From: Acetobacter indonesiensis
GTDB taxonomy: Bacteria > Pseudomonadota > Alphaproteobacteria > Acetobacterales > Acetobacteraceae
DNA length: 64,000 nucleotides
Direction: 5' to 3'
NCBI RefSeq assembly: GCF_000963945.1
Contig: NZ_BAMW01000078.1
Span: 1-64,000, forward strand
The translations under genes were made by a program, and so were the position numbers. Shown here piece after piece: positions 47,805 through 57,404 of the stretch. The notes under the pieces were generated by a model, which was not told the DNA's origin, made no database searches, and saw nothing but the letters and a program-made list of their open reading frames with translations. Position 1 is the first letter of the stretch. Each line of letters opens with the position of its first letter.

Positions 47805-48491
47805 CTATAAGGAGTGTGTACTTTGTAAAGCTATTTCTATTTTTTGTAATATACGTGTAGAAAATGGAAAGCCATTTTCCTGAAAGTAATTTTTTAGAAA
47901 AATCCAATAGTCAGGAAATCCATATGATATGGACTGATCAAACCAGTGGACCGCAGTTGAATAGTCTTCTGCTTCCAGTGCTAATCGTCCTAGATTAAAG
48001 GCGGCCCAGCAATCTCCCGCATTGGCTCCTGCTTGAAAATAAAGAAGTGCTTTCGTTTGGTCCGGGGGGGCTTCCTCTATACCTTTTTTGCACAATGTGC
48101 CCAGCATATTGAGGGCCTTGTTTACGCCGAGATTGGCTGCCTGCACGTAATAGAAAAATGCTCTATGGGTGTTTTGTGGTACGCCATCTCCAGAAAGATA
48201 CAAATCACCCAGATTGAAATATGCCCAGCCATCGTTCTGTTCTGCGGCGGCTTCAAAATATTTGATAGCCTGAGATATGCTGCGGGGTACCCCCCAGGCT
48301 TGTTCATACGCGCGTCCAAGCATGTTGAGTGCCTGTGGCTGCCCGCTTTGTGCTGCAACGGCAAACAGATTAAATGCTTGCGTGAATTGTTTTTTATTGA
48401 GGCACAATTGCCCCAGAAGCAGCTGTACTTCAACTCTATTGGGTAGCTTACTGGTAGGGGTGGTGGCCCCTACCAGAGAATTCTGTTGCAT
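47805..48491 (-). CDS. Sel1-like TPR protein
   Basis: 228 aa made mostly of about four Sel1 repeats of 35-38 residues (for example AINMLGRAYEQ-type and FNLGDLYLSGDGVPQNTHRA). No clear signal peptide. Its ATG overlaps the stop of the siderophore receptor gene by one base. In Pseudomonas aeruginosa a Sel1-like gene likewise accompanies piuA and piuC. Role unknown; Sel1 repeats usually mediate protein contacts. Confidence 0.85.
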   Translation of the reverse strand: MQQNSLVGATTPTSKLPNRVEVQLLLGQLCLNKKQFTQAFNLFAVAAQSGQPQALNMLGRAYEQAWGVPRSISQAIKYFEAAAEQNDGWAYFNLGDLYLSGDGVPQNTHRAFFYYVQAANLGVNKALNMLGTLCKKGIEEAPPDQTKALLYFQAGANAGDCWAAFNLGRLALEAEDYSTAVHWFDQSISYGFPDYWIFLKNYFQENGFPFSTRILQKIEIALQSTHSL

Positions 48492-50785
48492 TAAAATGTT
48501 AAGCCTACATTGCCCAGAAAAGACCGTGCTGGCCCCGGTACTGCCCGGCTGGAACTGAAGGAAGAAGCGTAGTTAAGATGATTGGTGATATTATTAGCGT
48601 TAAAGGAAACACGGTAATGTTTTGTTTCCCATGAAATCATACCGTTAAGGGAAAACTGATAAGGGATACGGGCTGTGTTGCTAAAGTCCCCGTTTGCCCA
48701 ATAACCAGAGGCATATTGTGCTCCACCAGCAATTTTAAGATGGCCGGTTTCCGCTCTCAAGAAGTGATTTCCAATGTCATAAGATGTCCAGAGCGAGAAA
48801 TTATTGTGTGACACGCCGGGTGCCTGATTCCCCTTATAGGTCGCGTTGTTTCTGATTTTACTGTCCATCCACGAATAGTTGCCATAGATGTCCCAGTTTT
48901 TGGTAATTTTGCCTGTCAGATTCAGTTCTACACCGCGGGTGCGTAGACCGACGCCAGAGTCACTGAAGCCGTTAACAACGTCGCCACTTTCATCATAATA
49001 GTAGGAGTTGTTTTGGTTGATCTGGAAAAAGGCCACCCCCATTCCCAATCGTTTATTAAAGAAATCGGTTTTGTTCCCGAATTCGAACAGGTCGCTCCGT
49101 TGTGGTTTGTAGTCTGCTCCATTTTGGGGCGTATCGCTTGCTAGAATAGTAACTTGGGACGACACATCCGTGCCGATTGGTTTATAAGAGCGGGAGAAAG
49201 TAAAGTAGAAAGACGAGTTTTTCAGAGGTGTATACATGATGCTCCCTGAAGGGCTCCAGCGATCGGCATTCTGCTTCTGTCGCGGTACAAGGGTTGACGA
49301 TAGCTGATACCCGGCGAAAGTAGACTGGAAAGCATCCCAGCGCACTGTGCCAAAGAGAGAGAGCTGTTTTGTAAGCTGGATATGATCTGAAAGAAATAAT
49401 CCGACGTCGCGCTGATCCGAGTTGGACATATTTGCTTTCGGAAGGCGGAGATAGGCCCCGTTAGAGGAATGAGACGGGTTACGGATTGTCTGGGTGTTAG
49501 ACCGCCCATACCAAGTGCCTATATAGCGGTTTTCATCCTGATAATTAACATCAACACCAAATTTTAAATCGTTCTTGAAGCGCCATGTGTCGAAACGTGC
49601 ATTGCCCATAAAAACATTCTCTACACCCCAACCTTTTGAAAGGTAGGCAACGCCTCCGCCCGCCCCATAACTAAGCAAAGGATTCCCGCCCGCATTAAAC
49701 TGACTGATGCAAGCGGGGGTACTACACGCGGCAGGGGTGGTCGCTGAATAATTACGTTCGTACTTTGTCAGACGTGTATTGTTGCTAAGTGTAAACCAGG
49801 ATGAAATCTTGGATTTAAGAGACGATGTCAGGCTATGAATGTCAGAATTATCCCGGTCCTCGCTGCGAGTATACGTCGTGTCGCGGGCAAGCCCTTCACT
49901 GGTAATGGGGCGGAATGTGCCGTTAGACGTTTTGATCATTCCAACACCGTAGTCGGGCAAACTGTCGGTATGCAGCCAACGCCAGTTCAGATGCCACGAG
50001 GTATCACTGTGCAGCCCGACACCGAGGTCAGCGGCTGCGCCATAACGGTTGGCGTAAATGTAATCTCTGCCGGGAACACCTGCACGATTATACATGCCGT
50101 TAATACGGAGGGCGACATCGCGGTTGAACTGATAGTTTACATCGCCCTGGCCACGATATGTGCTGGCGCTTCCGAAAGCCTGATCATAATTATAGGATGT
50201 GCCGTCATGCGCTTTTTTAAGAGACTGATTAATAAGGCCACCCAGATTTGCTGCACCAAAATATTCGCCTGCGGGACCTTTAATAACCTCAACATTTTCT
50301 ACGTCGAAGATATCACGCGTATAGGTACCAAAATCTTTTAAACCATCAGTATAAACGTCACCGCGAGCCTGTTGGCCACGAATACGGAATTGGTCTCCGT
50401 TTAGGCCCCCACGTCCTTCACCTGTTGAAAGCGTAATGCCCGGCACATTGGCCAGAGCTTGATCAAGCGTATAAAGGCGTTGCTGTTTTATAATTTCCTG
50501 CGGCACGACATTAATGACTTGTGGCGTGTCACGCACAGAAGTGGGCATGCGGCCAATATCCAACACAGTTGCATTAGTATTGGGAATTTCAGAAATATCT
50601 TTATGTTCTCCACGAACTCTGACAGCGGGGAGGTTTATATTCGTGTTGGTTAAGGCTGGATCTGTTTTTGCTTCTTGCGCGTCAGCTTCATTTTCTGCGT
50701 AACCGAAACCAGCAGATAGGCCGATGGCCATAGCTGCCCCCACGCGTAGTTTGGGGGAAAAAGAACGATCGTGCCGTTTCATCAT
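48491..50785 (-). CDS. piuA: PiuA/Fiu-type catecholate siderophore receptor
   Basis: Outer-membrane TonB-dependent receptor, 764 aa, with a signal peptide (GAAMAIGLSAGFGYA). The plug is of the Fiu/PiuA kind: DTPQVINVVPQEIIKQQ, TLDQALANVPGITLSTGEG, DVENVEVIKGPAGEYFGAAN. No STN domain. The downstream Sel1 gene and the nearby PiuC gene repeat the piu arrangement. A Fur-box candidate lies 66 bp upstream. Cargo is likely a ferric catecholate or related monomer. Confidence 0.88.
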   Translation of the reverse strand: MMKRHDRSFSPKLRVGAAMAIGLSAGFGYAENEADAQEAKTDPALTNTNINLPAVRVRGEHKDISEIPNTNATVLDIGRMPTSVRDTPQVINVVPQEIIKQQRLYTLDQALANVPGITLSTGEGRGGLNGDQFRIRGQQARGDVYTDGLKDFGTYTRDIFDVENVEVIKGPAGEYFGAANLGGLINQSLKKAHDGTSYNYDQAFGSASTYRGQGDVNYQFNRDVALRINGMYNRAGVPGRDYIYANRYGAAADLGVGLHSDTSWHLNWRWLHTDSLPDYGVGMIKTSNGTFRPITSEGLARDTTYTRSEDRDNSDIHSLTSSLKSKISSWFTLSNNTRLTKYERNYSATTPAACSTPACISQFNAGGNPLLSYGAGGGVAYLSKGWGVENVFMGNARFDTWRFKNDLKFGVDVNYQDENRYIGTWYGRSNTQTIRNPSHSSNGAYLRLPKANMSNSDQRDVGLFLSDHIQLTKQLSLFGTVRWDAFQSTFAGYQLSSTLVPRQKQNADRWSPSGSIMYTPLKNSSFYFTFSRSYKPIGTDVSSQVTILASDTPQNGADYKPQRSDLFEFGNKTDFFNKRLGMGVAFFQINQNNSYYYDESGDVVNGFSDSGVGLRTRGVELNLTGKITKNWDIYGNYSWMDSKIRNNATYKGNQAPGVSHNNFSLWTSYDIGNHFLRAETGHLKIAGGAQYASGYWANGDFSNTARIPYQFSLNGMISWETKHYRVSFNANNITNHLNYASSFSSSRAVPGPARSFLGNVGLTF

Positions 50786-50850
50786 ATTCTCCTGGATGAT
50801 GCTCTCATCCGACAGTGGGCTATGACAGCCAATTACTCGGCCTCTATGAT

Positions 50851-50870
50851 GTTACTGATTATCGTTCGCA
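50851..50870. promoter_or_regulatory. Fur-box candidate (piuA)
   Basis: The minus strand reads AACGATAATCAGTAAC, matching 13 of 16 positions of the Fur consensus segment AATGATAATCATTATC. Located between piuC and piuA in the receptor promoter. Confidence 0.7.
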
Positions 50871-50922
50871 ACAAAAAAGAAGTGCTGTCTTTTCATAAAC
50901 GTCAAGATGTGTTGCATCCAGG

Positions 50923-51618
50923 TTACAATTCAGCCCACCGTCGCACCAAATTATGGTAGCTGGCCGTCAAACCCAGAATAGCTGGGGACGTATCAGGAAT
51001 AAGCTGTCGGGCTTGCCGTATAGACTGATCGAGTTCGTAAAGAAGTGTGCGACAGCCATCATCTTTTACCATGGATTGAGTCCAGAAAAAGGACGCCCAC
51101 CTGCTGCCTCGTGTAACACGGTTGACCTTATGAAGGCTGGTGGACGGATACAGGACAAGATCCCCCGCGGGGAATTTGGCGGTATGCACGCCGTATGTGT
51201 CCTGTATTACCAGCTCTCCGCCATCATAACTTTCCGTGTCACTTAGAAAGAGGGTGGAGGAGACATCTGTGCGAATACGGAAACCTGTTTCAGGGTCGGG
51301 CCGAATGCTGTTATCGACATGATATTCAAACTCCATGCCAACGTCGTAGCGGTTGAACAAAGGTGGGAATACGCGCAAGGGCAGGGCGGCGCTGGTAAAA
51401 ATATCGTTTCGGGCCAGCGCGTTAAGAATAAGACGGCCAAGCTGATGCGCTACGTCTGATTCTTGTGGAATTTGCAGATTGGCCTTTGCTTTGGCGGACT
51501 GATCTCCCGCAGTAATTTTTCCGTCGACCCATTCGCTCTGCTCCAGTCTTTGGCGACAATGCAAGACTTCTTCCCGACTAAGTATTCCCGGAATATGGAT
51601 CAACATGACTTTACTCAC
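50923..51618 (-). CDS. piuC: PiuC/YbiX-type Fe(II) 2-oxoglutarate hydroxylase
   Basis: PKHD-type hydroxylase of 231 aa. Iron ligands H and D lie in [11 protein letters not shown], the second histidine in [10 protein letters not shown], and the 2-oxoglutarate arginine in [14 protein letters not shown]. Family members accompany siderophore receptors of the Fiu/PiuA type and are iron-regulated. Exact substrate not established here. Divergent from exbB. Confidence 0.92.
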
Positions 51619-51643
51619 TTCACCAACATAGATACGCTATATA

Positions 51644-51663
51644 TGAGAATGACTCTTAGTTGC
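51644..51663. promoter_or_regulatory. Fur-box candidate (piuC/exbB)
   Basis: TGAGAATGACTCTTAGTTGC lies between the divergent piuC and exbB genes. Read on the minus strand it agrees with 12 of 19 positions of the Fur consensus, so the match is moderate. Confidence 0.5.
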
Positions 51664-51755
51664 GTAATTGTTAAATATCAACCATAAGTGTTTGCCCGAC
51701 GCTTTGCCGAGCTTTGTGGGTCAGCACGCGTCGTTTTGTAGAAGGTAATCTGCCT

Positions 51756-52496
51756 ATGCCCGCGCTTTCGCCGTCAGCACTATCGCTCTCCCCGTGGGAT
51801 ATGTTCATGAATGCAGGGCCGATTGTGCGCTGTGTTATGATGCTGCTTGCTTTCGCCAGCGTATTAACGTGGACCATTTTTATCGCAAAATCTGTCGAAT
51901 TGTTCAGGGTGCGCCAGACCTTGCGAAAAGCAGAGCAGGCGCTGGAAAGTGCGAATACGTTAGATCTGGGGGAAGAGGGCACGCGTCAGAATGGGATTGC
52001 TCATACCCTGGTTATGGCGGCTGAGACTGAACGCGTCCGTTCGCAAGATATTGTAGACGACAATGAAGGACTGAAGGAACGCATTGTGCTGCACCTTGAG
52101 CGGCTGGAGGCGGCTGAAGGACGCAGGTTGATGCGGGGCACGGGGTTGCTCGCCACCATTGGGGCAACGTCACCTTTTATTGGGCTGTTTGGCACGGTGT
52201 GGGGTATTATGACCTCCTTTACAGGGATTGCTGCCAGTAAGGCTACCAGTCTGGCCGTTGTTGCGCCGGGCATTGCCGAAGCGTTGCTGGCGACAGCTTT
52301 AGGGTTGGTGGCGGCAATCCCGGCTGTTGTCATTTATAATCACCTTGCACGTCAAAGTGCGACGTGCCGGGCACATGTCGCAGACTTGACAGCGCTTGTT
52401 ATGCGGCTTGTTTCGCGTGATTTGGGGCGTATGCAGGCATTGACCAAAACCGGACAGGTTGTGCGCTTTGACCCCTCGCGCATGGCGGGGGAATAA
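51756..52496 (+). CDS. exbB: ExbB/MotA-TolQ-type proton channel
   Basis: Inner-membrane component powering TonB. 246 aa from the ATG at 51756 (GAAGG about nine bases upstream); the frame opens with a TTG at 51714. Three membrane segments: CVMMLLAFASVLTWTIFIAK, GTGLLATIGATSPFIGLFGT and GIAEALLATALGLVAAIPAV. First gene of exbB-exbD-tonB. Confidence 0.92.
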   Translation: MPALSPSALSLSPWDMFMNAGPIVRCVMMLLAFASVLTWTIFIAKSVELFRVRQTLRKAEQALESANTLDLGEEGTRQNGIAHTLVMAAETERVRSQDIVDDNEGLKERIVLHLERLEAAEGRRLMRGTGLLATIGATSPFIGLFGTVWGIMTSFTGIAASKATSLAVVAPGIAEALLATALGLVAAIPAVVIYNHLARQSATCRAHVADLTALVMRLVSRDLGRMQALTKTGQVVRFDPSRMAGE

Positions 52497-52502
52497 GGCA
52501 GC

Positions 52503-52967
52503 ATGTTGCGTATTCGCCATACAGATGAAAACCCGCATGAGGCGAGCGAAATAAACGTCACACCATTTATTGACGTGGTGTTGGTGTTGCTGGTCATTTT
52601 CATGGTAACGGCGCCACTTACGACAGTGAATGTGCCGGTTGATTTGCCATCTTCAACCGAAAAGCCTGCGCCGCGTCCAGATGATCCTGTTTTTTTAACT
52701 GTTAAAGCGGATCACAATCTGGCTTTGGGGGAGGATAATGTGGCCGTAGAAGGATTGCCCAATGCCTTGCAGCAGGCCACCAAGGGTGACAAGGAACAGC
52801 GCATTTTTCTGCGTGCGGATAAGACTGTCGATTACGGAACATTGATGAGCGTTATGGATAAATTGCGGGCAGCAGGTTATCTAAAGGTGGCTTTGGTTAA
52901 TTTGCAGGGGCAAGAAGAAGGGCAAGAAGTCAAATCTTCTGGGGCAATGGGTTCTGGAGCGCAGTAG
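52503..52967 (+). CDS. exbD: ExbD/TolR-type protein
   Basis: 154 aa with one membrane helix after the motif NVTPFIDVVLVLLVIFMVTA, which contains the conserved proton-pathway aspartate. A periplasmic domain follows. Six bases after exbB. Confidence 0.93.
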   Translation: MLRIRHTDENPHEASEINVTPFIDVVLVLLVIFMVTAPLTTVNVPVDLPSSTEKPAPRPDDPVFLTVKADHNLALGEDNVAVEGLPNALQQATKGDKEQRIFLRADKTVDYGTLMSVMDKLRAAGYLKVALVNLQGQEEGQEVKSSGAMGSGAQ

Positions 52968-52972
52968 TCGGC

Positions 52973-53806
52973 ATGCTTATTGATAAAGTGATTTCAGTAT
53001 CAGGTTCTTTTTCTAATTGGCAACAGATCAACAGGCATCGGCAGTTAAAAGAAGAAAGCATGCGCTGGGGACTATCCTTTGTCAGCGTTTTGCTGGCAAC
53101 GGGTGGGGTAATTTGGTGGGTCTCTCGTCTTCCTCAACCTGTTGTTGCAGTGGCAGAGCCTCCGCCAGCCGCCATAGCGATTGACATGACGCCTGAGCCG
53201 GTTTCGACACAGTCGCAAACACAAGATGTTCCTTTGGCGCCCCAACAGACACTTTCAGAGCCAGACCCGTCACCCGTTGAACCGCCGAAGATTATGGCAG
53301 CATCGTCTCCGGCCCCTAATCCACCGGTGCCGGTTCCAAAACCCGAGAAAGTGCGGAAAGTGGTTAAACCGCACAAGCCTGTTCTGTACCAGAAAAAGGT
53401 GATTCCGGATAATAGCCAGCCTGCCGAGATGACGACGGCTCCCCCACGATCAGATGCTCCGGTGGCTCAAGCTCATAATGCAGCTTCATCTGGCGCATCA
53501 TCCCCCAAAGCCGCACATGATCCGGTAACGTGGCAGGGGGCTTTGTTGGCGCAACTGGAAAGAGTCAAGCGTTATCCGCAAGAGGCTATGGCCGATCACG
53601 ACGAAGGTGTGCCAACGGTTACCTTTACTATGGATCGTTTGGGGCATGTGTTATCTGTCAGGTTAAATAAGAGTTCTGGCCACCCATTGTTGGACGCAGA
53701 AGCTGTTGCCCTGCCTAAACGCGCGCAACCCCTCCCGGTCCCGCCTGATAGCGTCCCCGGAAACCCGATAACACTGACTGTTCCTGTTGAGTTTTATATT
53801 CGCTAA
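52973..53806 (+). CDS. tonB: TonB energy-transducing protein
   Basis: 277 aa. One membrane segment (LSFVSVLLATGGVIWWVS), a long Pro/Glu/Lys-rich linker (about residues 55-165), and a C-terminal TonB domain (RVKRYPQEAMADHDEGVPTV, then VKLNKSSGH-type turn and LPVPPDSVPG). Energises receptors such as the piuA, fecA and pyrimidine-locus receptors. An ATG at 53060 is an alternative start just before the membrane segment. Confidence 0.92.
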   Translation: MLIDKVISVSGSFSNWQQINRHRQLKEESMRWGLSFVSVLLATGGVIWWVSRLPQPVVAVAEPPPAAIAIDMTPEPVSTQSQTQDVPLAPQQTLSEPDPSPVEPPKIMAASSPAPNPPVPVPKPEKVRKVVKPHKPVLYQKKVIPDNSQPAEMTTAPPRSDAPVAQAHNAASSGASSPKAAHDPVTWQGALLAQLERVKRYPQEAMADHDEGVPTVTFTMDRLGHVLSVRLNKSSGHPLLDAEAVALPKRAQPLPVPPDSVPGNPITLTVPVEFYIR

Positions 53807-54265: not shown

Positions 54266-54593
54266 GATAGGCTTATTATAAGAGAGCATAAAGAGATTGC
54301 GATCTGTTCAAATGGTCTCTCTATAAATAACTCGATAATATTAAAATGCTCTGACACTGTTTTGAGAATGCTGTCAGAGCATCTTTATCGAGACACTATA
54401 AATGCAAAATTAAAAAAACCTACATCTGATGGCAGGTTAAGACTCTTTTTTGATGTTGAAGAATAAAGTTCTTTAGGTCTTGAGAGAAAAAAGAAGCAAT
54501 AAAGTTCGACCAAATTTATTCGTTAACAAATCAAGATATATATCTTCCATAAACAAGCTGATGCCGGGTATATGCGCGGAGGTAGTGCATTTT
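54266..54593. other. 328-base gap with a long stem-loop
   Basis: No gene is seen. The notable element is an interrupted stem-loop at 54331-54392: ATGCTCTGACA (54346-54356) pairs with TGTCAGAGCAT (54372-54382), extended outward by CTCGATAA/TTATCGAG. No U-run follows. It may end the preceding transcript or act in the leader of the chorismatase gene. Confidence 0.5.
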
Positions 54594-55595
54594 ATGGAAC
54601 AGTCGCATCTTATGGTTGGCCACAATATTTTACGGGTTTCTTATGGTGCGTTTCAGACGGAGCACAGATCGGCCTTGGCTGTTGTGCAGTATGCTCCGGG
54701 CAACGCAAAACTTTGCTATCGTAATGGTCAGGTGCAGCTAACTATTCCCTATACACATGGCGAATGCTCCGAATATTGGTCAACACTAGAAGTAAGCTCC
54801 TGTCGCGGTGGTATGACTGACCAAGGAGTTGCATGGTGTGAAGACGGTACAAACCTGTTTGCAGCCTTTATTCTTGACGATAGGCCAAGGTTATCAGGCG
54901 CTGTTCAGGAAAAATATGAAGCCCTGTTAAATTTTGTACAGGAAAAAGAGTATAGAACACTTTATAGAATATGGAATTATATTGGTCGTATTAATCAATC
55001 GAATAAAGATGGTCTTGAACGGTACCGGGACTTTTGCTTGGGGCGAGCGCTCGCGTTTGAGCGTTCAGGGTTCACGATGGAAACTTTGCCAGCAGCCACA
55101 GGGATTGGGTTCGACGAGGGAGGCGTGTGTGTTTATCTGCTTGCTCGTCGTGATGGGCTGGCCGCCAATATAGAAAACCCATTACAAATACCAGCCTATC
55201 GTTACCCAATAACCTACGGGCCTAAGTCTCCATCTTTTGCACGTGGCACTGTTCTTTATGATCAACAGAGGCTTGAGTTATACCTTTCCGGCACAGCAAG
55301 CATTCGTCAGTCTGTTTCTGTTGGAAGTAACTTGGAAGAGCAAATAAATATTACAATAGAAAACATACACGCTTTGATAGAGAGCGTTAAGGAAAAAGAG
55401 GAACTAGACAATTGTGTCTGCTCAAGTTTAAAAATTTATGTAAGACATGCTAAAGACAAGGCTGCTGTATCTAATGTTTTCCGTCATGTTTTTAATGTGT
55501 CCCCCGAAAATTCGCCTGTTTTCGTTTCCGATATTTGCAGGTCAGAACTTCTTTTAGAAGTCGAAGGTGTTTTCTCCTACACTATGAATAAATAA
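54594..55595 (+). CDS. Chorismatase-family enzyme (FkbO/Hyg5/XanB2 type)
   Basis: Chorismatases hydrolyse chorismate; FkbO makes a dihydroxycyclohexadiene carboxylate, Hyg5 3-hydroxybenzoate, and XanB2 both 3- and 4-hydroxybenzoate. Family blocks are clear: YRIWNYIGRIN, LERYRDFCLGRALAFERSG, ENPLQIPAYRYP followed by YGPKSPSFARGT, LYLSGTASI, and the C-terminal CRSELLLEVEG with its glutamate. The usual GHxSxH segment after SGTASI is replaced (RQSVSVGSN), so the enzyme is divergent. 333 aa from the ATG at 54594 (GGAGG 11 bases upstream) fits the family length; the frame opens with TTG at 54480. It could supply 4-hydroxybenzoate for ubiquinone or an aromatic secondary product. Confidence 0.82.
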   Translation: MEQSHLMVGHNILRVSYGAFQTEHRSALAVVQYAPGNAKLCYRNGQVQLTIPYTHGECSEYWSTLEVSSCRGGMTDQGVAWCEDGTNLFAAFILDDRPRLSGAVQEKYEALLNFVQEKEYRTLYRIWNYIGRINQSNKDGLERYRDFCLGRALAFERSGFTMETLPAATGIGFDEGGVCVYLLARRDGLAANIENPLQIPAYRYPITYGPKSPSFARGTVLYDQQRLELYLSGTASIRQSVSVGSNLEEQINITIENIHALIESVKEKEELDNCVCSSLKIYVRHAKDKAAVSNVFRHVFNVSPENSPVFVSDICRSELLLEVEGVFSYTMNK

Positions 55596-55713
55596 CGAGA
55601 TTGAGGGTATTGTGGCAAGTTGACACACAACGATAATATAATACCAACAAAAATATTTTAATAAATAAAGCTGAAGTCTTCCGTAATCTAGTCTCAAAAT
55701 TCAGCCTACTGAA

Positions 55714-55790: not shown

Positions 55791-57404
55791 ATGTCTGAAA
55801 CGATAGTCGGCGCTGGTACGCAAAGCCGCCCCAACATGCAGGGTGGTGAACATCAGGCATTTCGTTTTTTCTTTCTGGCGGTGATAGCCGCAGCCCTTTC
55901 TTTTGTCGGCTACAGTGTTTTGCAGGACCTGCATCAGGCAGGGGCAAATGGCATCGCCGTGGGGGCTTTTGTGTTGCTGGCTCTGGCGCTTCTCATTGCG
56001 CTGGGGTTTGAATTTGTAAATGGCTTTCATGACACTGCAAATGCTGTGGCAACAGTCATTTACACCAATAGCCTTCCGCCACTGGTTGCTGTGGTTTGGT
56101 CCGGGGCCTGGAACCTTTTGGGTGTGTTGGTTTCTTCCGGTGCCGTGGCCTACAGCGTTGTAACATTGCTGCCTGTTGAACTTATTCTTCAGGTAGGGAG
56201 CGGGGCAGGGCACGCCATGATTTTTGCTCTGCTGCTTTCGGCTATTGTTTGGAACCTTGCCACATGGGCTATGGGCATACCCAACAGTTCTTCCCACGCG
56301 TTGGTAGGCTCAATTCTGGGGGTGGGGTTTGCGAACCAGTTAATGGCTCCTACAGGGAGTGCGCTCTATGGGGTTGATTGGTCGCAGGTCAGGAAAGTTT
56401 TTTCTTCCCTATTATTCAGCCCGATCTGCGGCTTTATTCTCGCTGCTGGTCTGTTGCTGGTTTTCAAGCTGCTGATCAAAAATCCTGCTCTGTATAAATC
56501 CCCTGAAGGGGATGCACCGCCTCCATTGTGGATCCGTGGTTTGCTGGTTGGGACCTGCACCGGGGTGTCTTTTTTCCACGGCAGCAATGATGGCCAGAAA
56601 GGCATGGGTCTTATCATGCTCATTCTGATCGGTGCGGCGCCTACGGCTTATGCTCTTAATCGTGCCATGCCTGAAAGCGCTATGCCCGCGTTCGTCCAGA
56701 CAGCGGAACAGACCGCAACAGTTTTTCGTCAACATGCGCCAGCAGCCGGGGTGGCCCCGAATGCTGTTGAGGCCAGAAGCATTGTAACGGATGCGCTGAG
56801 AGAGAAATCAGTTAACCGGCCGCTTGTTTACAGCGCACTAGGCACGTTGTCTGACGATATTGCTGAATCTGTTAAAAACTATCGTTCCTTGCATGCCATT
56901 CCGGCGGCTGCCGTACCAAACGTCCGTACAGATATGTATCTGGTTTCAGATGCCATTCGCACACTTGGCGCGGCCAAGGATTTTTCAGGTGATGAAGGGG
57001 CACAGCTTAAAAGCTTCATGGGGCTGTTGAACGCAGGTACCCGTTTTATTCCGACATGGGTCAAAATCTCGGTCGCGCTGGCGCTCGGGCTTGGTACAAT
57101 GGTTGGTTGGAAGCGTATTGTCGTAACCGTTGGTGAAAAAATTGGAAAAACGCATCTAACCTATGCGCAGGGTGCTTCGGCCGAAATTGTCGCTATGGGC
57201 ACAATCGGTCTGGCAGAAGGCTATGGTATGCCGGTTTCTACCACGCATATTCTCTCCAGTGGTGTTGCCGGAACAATGGTCGCTGGCGGTGGTGGCCTGC
57301 AAATGAGCACATTGCGGAGCATGGCTATGGCGTGGATTATCACATTGCCAGCCGCTATGCTTATTAGTGGGGTGCTCTACATGGTTTTCCGCTACATTTT
57401 CTAA
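55791..57404 (+). CDS. pit: PiT-family inorganic phosphate transporter
   Basis: Inner-membrane phosphate carrier, 537 aa. The two internally repeated PiT signatures are NGFHDTANAVATVIYTNSLP near the start and PVSTTHILSSGVAGTM near the end; GIPNSSSHALVGSILGVG is the matching first-half motif. A large cytosolic loop occupies about residues 270-410. AGGAA lies seven bases before the ATG. Preceded by a Pho-box candidate and followed by a porin gene 32 bases downstream. Confidence 0.92.
   Translation: MSETIVGAGTQSRPNMQGGEHQAFRFFFLAVIAAALSFVGYSVLQDLHQAGANGIAVGAFVLLALALLIALGFEFVNGFHDTANAVATVIYTNSLPPLVAVVWSGAWNLLGVLVSSGAVAYSVVTLLPVELILQVGSGAGHAMIFALLLSAIVWNLATWAMGIPNSSSHALVGSILGVGFANQLMAPTGSALYGVDWSQVRKVFSSLLFSPICGFILAAGLLLVFKLLIKNPALYKSPEGDAPPPLWIRGLLVGTCTGVSFFHGSNDGQKGMGLIMLILIGAAPTAYALNRAMPESAMPAFVQTAEQTATVFRQHAPAAGVAPNAVEARSIVTDALREKSVNRPLVYSALGTLSDDIAESVKNYRSLHAIPAAAVPNVRTDMYLVSDAIRTLGAAKDFSGDEGAQLKSFMGLLNAGTRFIPTWVKISVALALGLGTMVGWKRIVVTVGEKIGKTHLTYAQGASAEIVAMGTIGLAEGYGMPVSTTHILSSGVAGTMVAGGGGLQMSTLRSMAMAWIITLPAAMLISGVLYMVFRYIF

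Follow-up and report, generated by a model that had tools for sequence, protein, structure and literature searches.

Hyg5 and Nat-hyg5, CH-II chorismatases and 3-hydroxybenzoate synthases of Streptomyces, are among the described systems with which a lone gene of Acetobacter indonesiensis can be compared. The gene lies at 54594–55595 of the window, the whole stretch of 64,000 nucleotides that was analysed. Its protein is like Hyg5 in fold, in the catalytic Glu, in three CH-II residues and in its part of the tree. It differs in sequence (ca. 33–36% identity to Hyg5 or a near-identical Streptomyces relative, among the matches listed), in scoring below the TIGR04444 cut-off, and in the loss of a Gly-His pair from one loop. 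Enzymes of the Hyg5 kind supply assembly lines of the type I PKS or NRPS kind (PMC7170507), while the Acetobacter enzyme presumably serves a type II aryl polyene cluster.

FkbO (CH-I) is similar to the protein in fold and general sequence, but has Ala at the positions of Gly233 and Cys315. XanB2 and ArcB (CH-III) are of the same family, though XanB2-like sequences have Ala at position 170, where the Acetobacter protein has Gly. XanB2 and ArcB have a similar partner cluster, with an AMP-ligase, LolA, an exporter, an acyltransferase and a halogenase-like protein, and they make both 3-hydroxybenzoate (3-HBA) and 4-hydroxybenzoate (4-HB) from genes within those clusters (PMC3949708); the gene in the window is unlinked. 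In Lysobacter enzymogenes, deletion of the chorismatase cut the pigment by ca. 90%, and 3-HBA restored it (PMC3691225). In the Azoarcus arcuflavin system, where the chorismatase is ArcB, the AMP-ligase ArcT is active on 3-HBA; ArcT accepts 4-substituted benzoates too, so 4-HB could also serve as a starter (PMC3949708). UbiC (PF04345) also acts on chorismate, but is of a different family from the protein, which had no PF04345 match at E ≤ 1.

The arcuflavin and xanthomonadin clusters resemble loci of acetic acid bacteria in gene content (PMC3949708). The products of the aryl polyene clusters in this family are probably undescribed (PMC8776678), and a cluster in Bombella apis has a weak similarity of 14% to that of xanthomonadin (PMC8262860); the parts of these last two papers that were covered name no chorismatase. 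There was no joint mention of chorismatase and Acetobacter-type names in the literature searched, outside which subscription papers and database annotations lie, and that literature seems to contain no report of acetic acid bacteria in which a CH-II-type enzyme is paired with clusters of the xanthomonadin type.

An intact chorismatase gene

The ORF is real and intact – the ATG is at 54594, the stop ends at 55595, and the translation of 333 amino acids has no internal stop. The features of the window that bear on it are:

48491–53806, both strands: iron-uptake genes, context only – TonB-dependent receptor and PKHD hydroxylase (-), ExbB/ExbD/TonB (+)
54340–54388, +: strong hairpin (inverted repeat) separating the chorismatase from the genes before it; possible end of transcription, T-tract weak
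54578–54582, +: GGAGG 11 nt ahead of the ATG, a putative ribosome-binding site
54594–55595, +: chorismatase (Pfam, alignment, tree, model), Hyg5-type (CH-II) by residues, predicted 3-hydroxybenzoate synthase
55101–55103, +: codon of Gly170 (Hyg5 Gly173), CH-II signature residue 1, by alignment
55290–55292, +: codon of Gly233 (Hyg5 Gly240), CH-II signature residue 2, by alignment
55305–55325, +: codons 238–244, RQSVSVG, where xGHxSxH is usual, by alignment
55536–55538, +: codon of Cys315 (Hyg5 Cys327), CH-II signature residue 3, by alignment
55557–55559, +: codon of Glu322 (Hyg5 catalytic Glu334), by alignment
55596–55695, no strand: synteny limit by DNA comparison; 55696 is the first position similar to the pitA locus of A. 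cibinongensis
55791–57404, +: PHO4-family phosphate transporter, downstream context only

Pfam, sequence and fold all identify the protein as a chorismatase, and the enzyme belongs to an already known family. It scores 118.4 bits against PF21168 (FkbO_Hyg5-like_N), which has a gathering cut-off of 27. The original prediction had assigned it to the chorismatase family from nearly all of the family's sequence blocks, and the assignment is borne out by this score and by the fold, as are the blocks YRIWNYIGRIN, AYRYP, YGPKSPSFARGT and SGTASI by the ORF itself. Solved structures that match the protein are Hyg5 (5ag3, E 2e-50) and FkbO (4bps, E 1e-42). The AlphaFold model, built with 36 sequences, has a mean pLDDT of 94.6, and its top 7 Foldseek matches are all Hyg5/FkbO chains with TM scores of 0.85–0.88 (Hyg5: E 1e-35, TM 0.87). 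Against the NCBIfam model for FkbO/Hyg5 family chorismatases, TIGR04444, the protein scores 243 bits, under the cut-off of 325. The four other members of its acetic-acid-bacteria clade that were scored reach 243–256 bits, so that all five tested are below the cut-off, as are three XanB2-like sequences (190–229 bits); the three actinomycete/Caballeronia sequences scored (Amycolatopsis, Streptomyces, Caballeronia) pass it. The clade thus lies outside the reach of this curated subfamily cut-off.

The gene has a GC content of 43.4%, compared to 48.8% for the window, and 12 of 126 1-kb windows are equally low. This is not evidence of transfer, because the related gene of Acetobacter G315 is also at 43.5%. 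Insertion by a mobile element was considered and rejected: there is no tRNA gene in the window and there are no convincing flanking repeats. Chorismatases were found in 11 of 72,556 plasmid records, none of them named as from an acetic acid bacterium. The best plasmid matches, at 47% identity to the ORF protein, are FkbO/Hyg5-family chorismatases of ant-derived Pseudonocardia (Apterostigma dentigerum; NZ_CP012186.1, NZ_CP010990.1).

The CH-II signature, Gly/Gly/Cys at Hyg5 positions 173, 240 and 327, is present in the protein as G170/G233/C315, and the catalytic Glu, Hyg5 E334, as E322 (for the signature and the role of Glu, see PMC7170507). The CH-I pattern of Ala at positions 240 and 327, seen in FkbO, is absent. 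Ala at the Hyg5-173 position reportedly sets the CH-III type apart; the Lysobacteraceae sequences have it, while the protein has Gly. XanB2 is represented here by sequences from Lysobacteraceae, Rhodanobacteraceae and Thioalkalivibrio, all with Ala in this column, as X. campestris XanB2 is not among the aligned rows. Of the 106 rows, 58 have Ala in this column, 43 have Gly and 5 have other residues, and Asaia astilbis, of the same clade as the ORF protein, has Ala. Alignment alone does not accurately predict the reaction of a chorismatase, according to a paper of 2014 (PMC3949708). With G170/G233/C315 and E322, the predicted product is 3-HBA only, and it is likely that the enzyme makes 3-HBA.

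A tree of 99 rows was rooted at its midpoint. Seven of the 106 aligned rows were left out of the tree and of the conservation counts – L079 (Ns), L023 (truncated) and five identical or near-identical rows – and the named relatives come from the best 80 of at least 568 confirmed loci. The chorismatases of Acetobacter, Saccharibacter, Bombella and Asaia astilbis form one clade (support 100/99), which is sister to actinomycete and Caballeronia proteins that include Hyg5 and FkbO (joint clade 96/81). Within the clade, the ORF protein is sister to those of A. cibinongensis and Acetobacter G315 (99/90). The tree of FkbO, Hyg5 and XanB2 types that the original prediction had called for, with XanB2 present by its stand-ins, places the protein beside Hyg5/FkbO; together with Gly at position 170, this goes against an enzyme of the XanB2 type, while the residues favour the 3-HBA which had been supposed as a product. 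The truncated row, L023 (genome G030), has Lys for Glu two residues past the catalytic Glu, and no aryl polyene exporter was found in that genome.

Aryl polyene clusters here and in related genomes

The closest homologues of the protein among the matches listed, at 43–51% identity, are the chorismatases of A. cibinongensis, G315, Bombella, Saccharibacter floricola and Asaia astilbis. In these genomes the gene is beside aryl polyene genes (a partial set only in Asaia astilbis), whereas in A. indonesiensis it is away from the cluster, which is of another subtype. In A. cibinongensis, G315, Bombella and Saccharibacter the chorismatase is within a few kb of genes for an ACP, an AMP-ligase, an acyltransferase, a LolA-like protein, an MMPL exporter and ketosynthase-like proteins; some or most of the loci add a dehydratase-like frame, a reductase, a halogenase-like flavoprotein and a UbiE-like methyltransferase. 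Gene names at these loci were transferred from the Pfam matches of the A. indonesiensis genes; for the dehydratase, a sequence pattern is the only basis.

The association extends across the Acetobacteraceae. The exporter was found in 20 of the 23 family genomes with PF21168 and in 79 of the 274 without it (Fisher p 4.8e-8, kinship ignored), or, counted by genus, in 8 of 9 and 38 of 82 (p 0.03). This search scored at most 3 first-look candidates per genome, so absences of the exporter may be overcounted. In Acetobacter, where all candidates were scored, the exporter is in all three genomes with a chorismatase and in 9 of the 46 without one (p 0.012, kinship ignored). Gene and exporter are within 12 kb of each other in 15 of the 20 genomes and unlinked in five (A. 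indonesiensis, which is G000, and G187, G089, G134 and G171). Three genomes have PF21168 and no exporter match: G030, of the Bombella genus group, in which the chorismatase is without its N-terminal part; G073, in which it is very divergent; and G287, whose congener G192 has a weak exporter match (33% identity). Nine genomes of the Bombella group have a chorismatase, and G030, with the truncated one, is the only one of these without an exporter match.

The exporter and the halogenase-like protein of A. cibinongensis, used as queries, each had a match on contig C132 of the A. indonesiensis genome (61% and 68% identity). The cluster on C132 encodes a UbiE-like methyltransferase, a GT2 glycosyltransferase, an ACP, an AMP-ligase, an acyltransferase, a LolA-like protein, an MMPL protein, two ketosynthase-like proteins, a reductase and a halogenase-like protein. 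A further frame resembles a dehydratase in its sequence pattern alone and has no Pfam match. None of the frames has an internal stop. The chorismatase is on contig C104, neither inside nor beside the cluster but unlinked to it, at least ca. 31 kb away as judged from the lengths of the contigs. The original prediction had described the gene as without a biosynthetic cluster and had proposed a search for aryl polyene genes; the description is right for the neighbourhood in the window and wrong for the genome, in which that search finds this xanthomonadin-type aryl polyene cluster. Two genes that mark its subtype, and a neighbour of the cluster, are:

L126:10106–10954 (C132): GT2 glycosyltransferase
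L127:3633–4952 (C132): 440-aa lipoprotein-like gene
L126:74–9288 (C132): putative CRISPR-Cas operon of type I-E and putative CRISPR-array-like frame, directly beside the cluster

In a tree of exporters, this cluster groups with those of G320, G302, G306, G307 and G314, not with those of A. cibinongensis and G315. None of the five carries a chorismatase, and they share with A. indonesiensis the GT2 glycosyltransferase and the 440-aa lipoprotein-like gene. Of 14 cluster loci examined that are without a chorismatase, 10 have both genes; the eight loci examined that have a chorismatase of the acetic-acid-bacteria clade are all without either. The 14 loci leave out the A. indonesiensis locus and those of G187 (glycosyltransferase only) and G089 (neither gene), two genomes with an unlinked chorismatase. 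Loci with a linked XanB2-like chorismatase carry the glycosyltransferase in 4 of 4 cases and the lipoprotein-like gene in 2 of 4, so the split between subtypes holds only within the acetic-acid-bacteria clade. The G320 cluster (L155) looks interrupted: the AMP-ligase breaks off ahead of several other frames, and the exporter is in two frames.

The surroundings of the gene are also uneven. PitA is 96% identical to that of A. cibinongensis, compared to 51% for the chorismatase and 61% for the exporter, and similarity to the A. cibinongensis pitA locus at the DNA level begins only downstream of the chorismatase. The A. cibinongensis genes upstream of pitA (L188) differ from those in the window. 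From the grouping of the exporters, the contrast in identity and the break in synteny, it seems that the gene and the cluster do not share one history. One possibility is that the lone enzyme feeds a cluster subtype that is chorismatase-free elsewhere, perhaps with a change from a 4-HB to a 3-HBA starter; the other is that it survives from a lost cluster.

The first of these is the reading we lean towards: a Hyg5-type chorismatase that probably supplies 3-HBA in trans to prime the C132 aryl polyene pigment. Glu322 would donate a proton to the methylene group of chorismate, and in the pocket of Gly170, Gly233 and Cys315 pyruvate would be lost via an arene-oxide intermediate, with release of 3-HBA. 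The C132 AMP-ligase would then activate 3-HBA and load it onto the ACP, the type II ketosynthase set would extend this starter into the pigment, and the LolA-like and MMPL proteins would export it. With gene and cluster unlinked in this genome, the enzyme would act in trans. In favour of this reading are the fold, the CH-II residues, the clade, the position of the gene beside such clusters in relatives and the association with the exporter, and there are precedents, genetic in Lysobacter enzymogenes and biochemical for ArcB and ArcT. Against the in-trans reading are the broad substrate range of ArcT, the 2014 caution about alignments, the separate contigs, the lack of a chorismatase for this cluster subtype in its five closest tree relatives, the lost G239-H240, the Ala170 of Asaia astilbis, and the TIGR04444 scores of the clade. 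A more specific form of the in-trans reading is put forward tentatively, and may well not hold: a swap of starter unit, in which a subtype that elsewhere is chorismatase-free, and presumably primed with 4-hydroxybenzoate, is fed by the unlinked Hyg5-type enzyme to give a meta-hydroxylated, 3-HBA-primed pigment. More broadly, enzymes of the CH-II type, not the XanB2 type, would then prime the xanthomonadin-like pigments of acetic acid bacteria.

Survival from a lost cluster is the next best account, though an unlikely one. An ancestor would have had an A. cibinongensis-like cluster with a linked chorismatase, this cluster would have been replaced by one of the other subtype, and 3-HBA would now be unneeded or a minor starter. 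The chorismatase, unlike the exporter, does group with those of A. cibinongensis and G315, it stands at the synteny break, and it shows the contrast in identity with PitA. Weighing against survival are the intact frame, the retained catalytic residues, and a branch no longer than those of its sisters; also, the truncation in G030, the lone exporter-less case of the Bombella group, looks as if decay follows the loss of a cluster.

The stretch after SGTASI, ubiquinone and iron uptake

The GHxSxH that usually follows SGTASI is replaced, as had been noted from the sequence at the outset: residues 238–244 are RQSVSVG. The first His is absent from 5 of the 106 rows and the Gly before it from 7, the ORF protein included in both counts, and it is the only row in which both are missing. 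The second His is absent from 31 rows (in one of them the position is a gap). All members of the acetic-acid-bacteria clade shown belong to these 31, so the departure from GHxSxH is partly a trait of the clade. The corresponding stretch is GHESVG in Bombella, and RNHVSLC and RNHTSLT in the sister Acetobacter proteins. There are 48 columns conserved to at least 85% in 98 other sequences. The ORF protein keeps 45 of these, with departures at A218G, G239Q and H240S, compared to two departures in the median row. The branch leading to it has a length of 0.41, and the paths to its sisters are 0.42 and 0.46; with a branch no longer than these paths, there is no sign of decay or relaxed constraint. 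A change of product or loss of activity through the replacement of G239-H240 is to be weighed, since the two positions are 95–96% conserved in the 98 other sequences and no other row lacks both; it is improbable, as four other rows do without the His and six without the Gly, the named catalytic residues are kept, and the AlphaFold confidence is high.

Replacement of UbiC, with the chorismatase supplying 4-hydroxybenzoate for ubiquinone, was one function first proposed for the gene, together with a search of the genome for ubiC. In the genome (3.41 Mb in 181 contigs, complete to 100%) a profile search with PF04345 recognised no ubiC; among 14 control genomes the profile matched only E. coli. 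No ubiC candidate was seen by eye beside ubiA, and PF01947 (Rv2949c-like chorismate lyase) is also without a match in this genome; in 60 genomes of the family PF01947 matched one, where the match coincides in position with ubiC. Across 297 Acetobacteraceae genomes, sampled with a requested completeness of at least 90%, ubiC is in 9 (2 of 91 genera) and PF21168 in 23, with both in none and neither in 265. Within Acetobacter, 3 of the 49 genomes sampled have the chorismatase, and none of 11 has ubiC.

This distribution does not fit a replacement: the chorismatase does not follow the absence of ubiC, and most relatives lack both genes, which rules out replacement of UbiC as the main reading. With ubiC missing from 288 of the 297 genomes, its absence says nothing special about the chorismatase gene. 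The absence of PF04345 here, the lack of any genome with both genes, and the part of this kind that XanB2 plays in Xanthomonas (PMC5069965) are what speak for replacement; against the 265 genomes with neither gene, the 46 of 49 Acetobacter genomes without a chorismatase, and residues that predict 3-HBA only, it is very doubtful. If ubiquinone is made from 4-hydroxybenzoate, as expected, the 265 genomes imply another source of 4-HB in most of the family. The 4-hydroxybenzoate for ubiquinone in most Acetobacteraceae is accounted for by neither ubiC nor a chorismatase, and PF01947 adds one genome in 60.

Upstream of the chorismatase is an iron-uptake module, in which the names ExbD and TonB are presumptive, being given from the sequence. 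The nearest model to its TonB-dependent receptor is Fiu, though the score is below that model's cut-off. The hairpin at 54340–54388 (fold -18 kcal/mol, z -3.3) is not among the three terminator-like sites of a consensus scan, which found no promoter before the chorismatase on its strand; the scan gave 2 promoter-like and 3 terminator-like sites, compared to 4.5 and 2.0 expected by chance. Membership of the chorismatase in the iron module is not supported – the hairpin lies between the units, and in the acetic-acid-bacteria relatives examined the chorismatase is near pigment-cluster genes – and no functional tie between the gene and its iron neighbours was found. A role of 3-HBA as a signal or metal-related compound was first proposed for the gene; in the form of a diffusible signal, or of a metal- or siderophore-related compound tied to the TonB genes, it is the least probable of the alternatives, despite the adjoining Fiu-like receptor, PKHD hydroxylase and ExbBD/TonB and the role of 3-HBA as a diffusible factor in Xanthomonas (PMC3949708), given this hairpin (not called by the terminator scan) and the position of the relatives' genes.

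Meaning for the acetic acid bacteria

Provision of 3-HBA for the start of a yellow, sunscreen-like pigment encoded elsewhere in the genome, rather than for ubiquinone or iron uptake, is the most likely role of the gene. In Acetobacteraceae, the absence of ubiC does not indicate that a chorismatase has taken its place. An orphan gene gains a testable assignment, and the chorismatases of several acetic acid bacteria are tied to aryl polyene clusters whose products are given as probably undescribed (PMC8776678) or only weakly xanthomonadin-like (PMC8262860).
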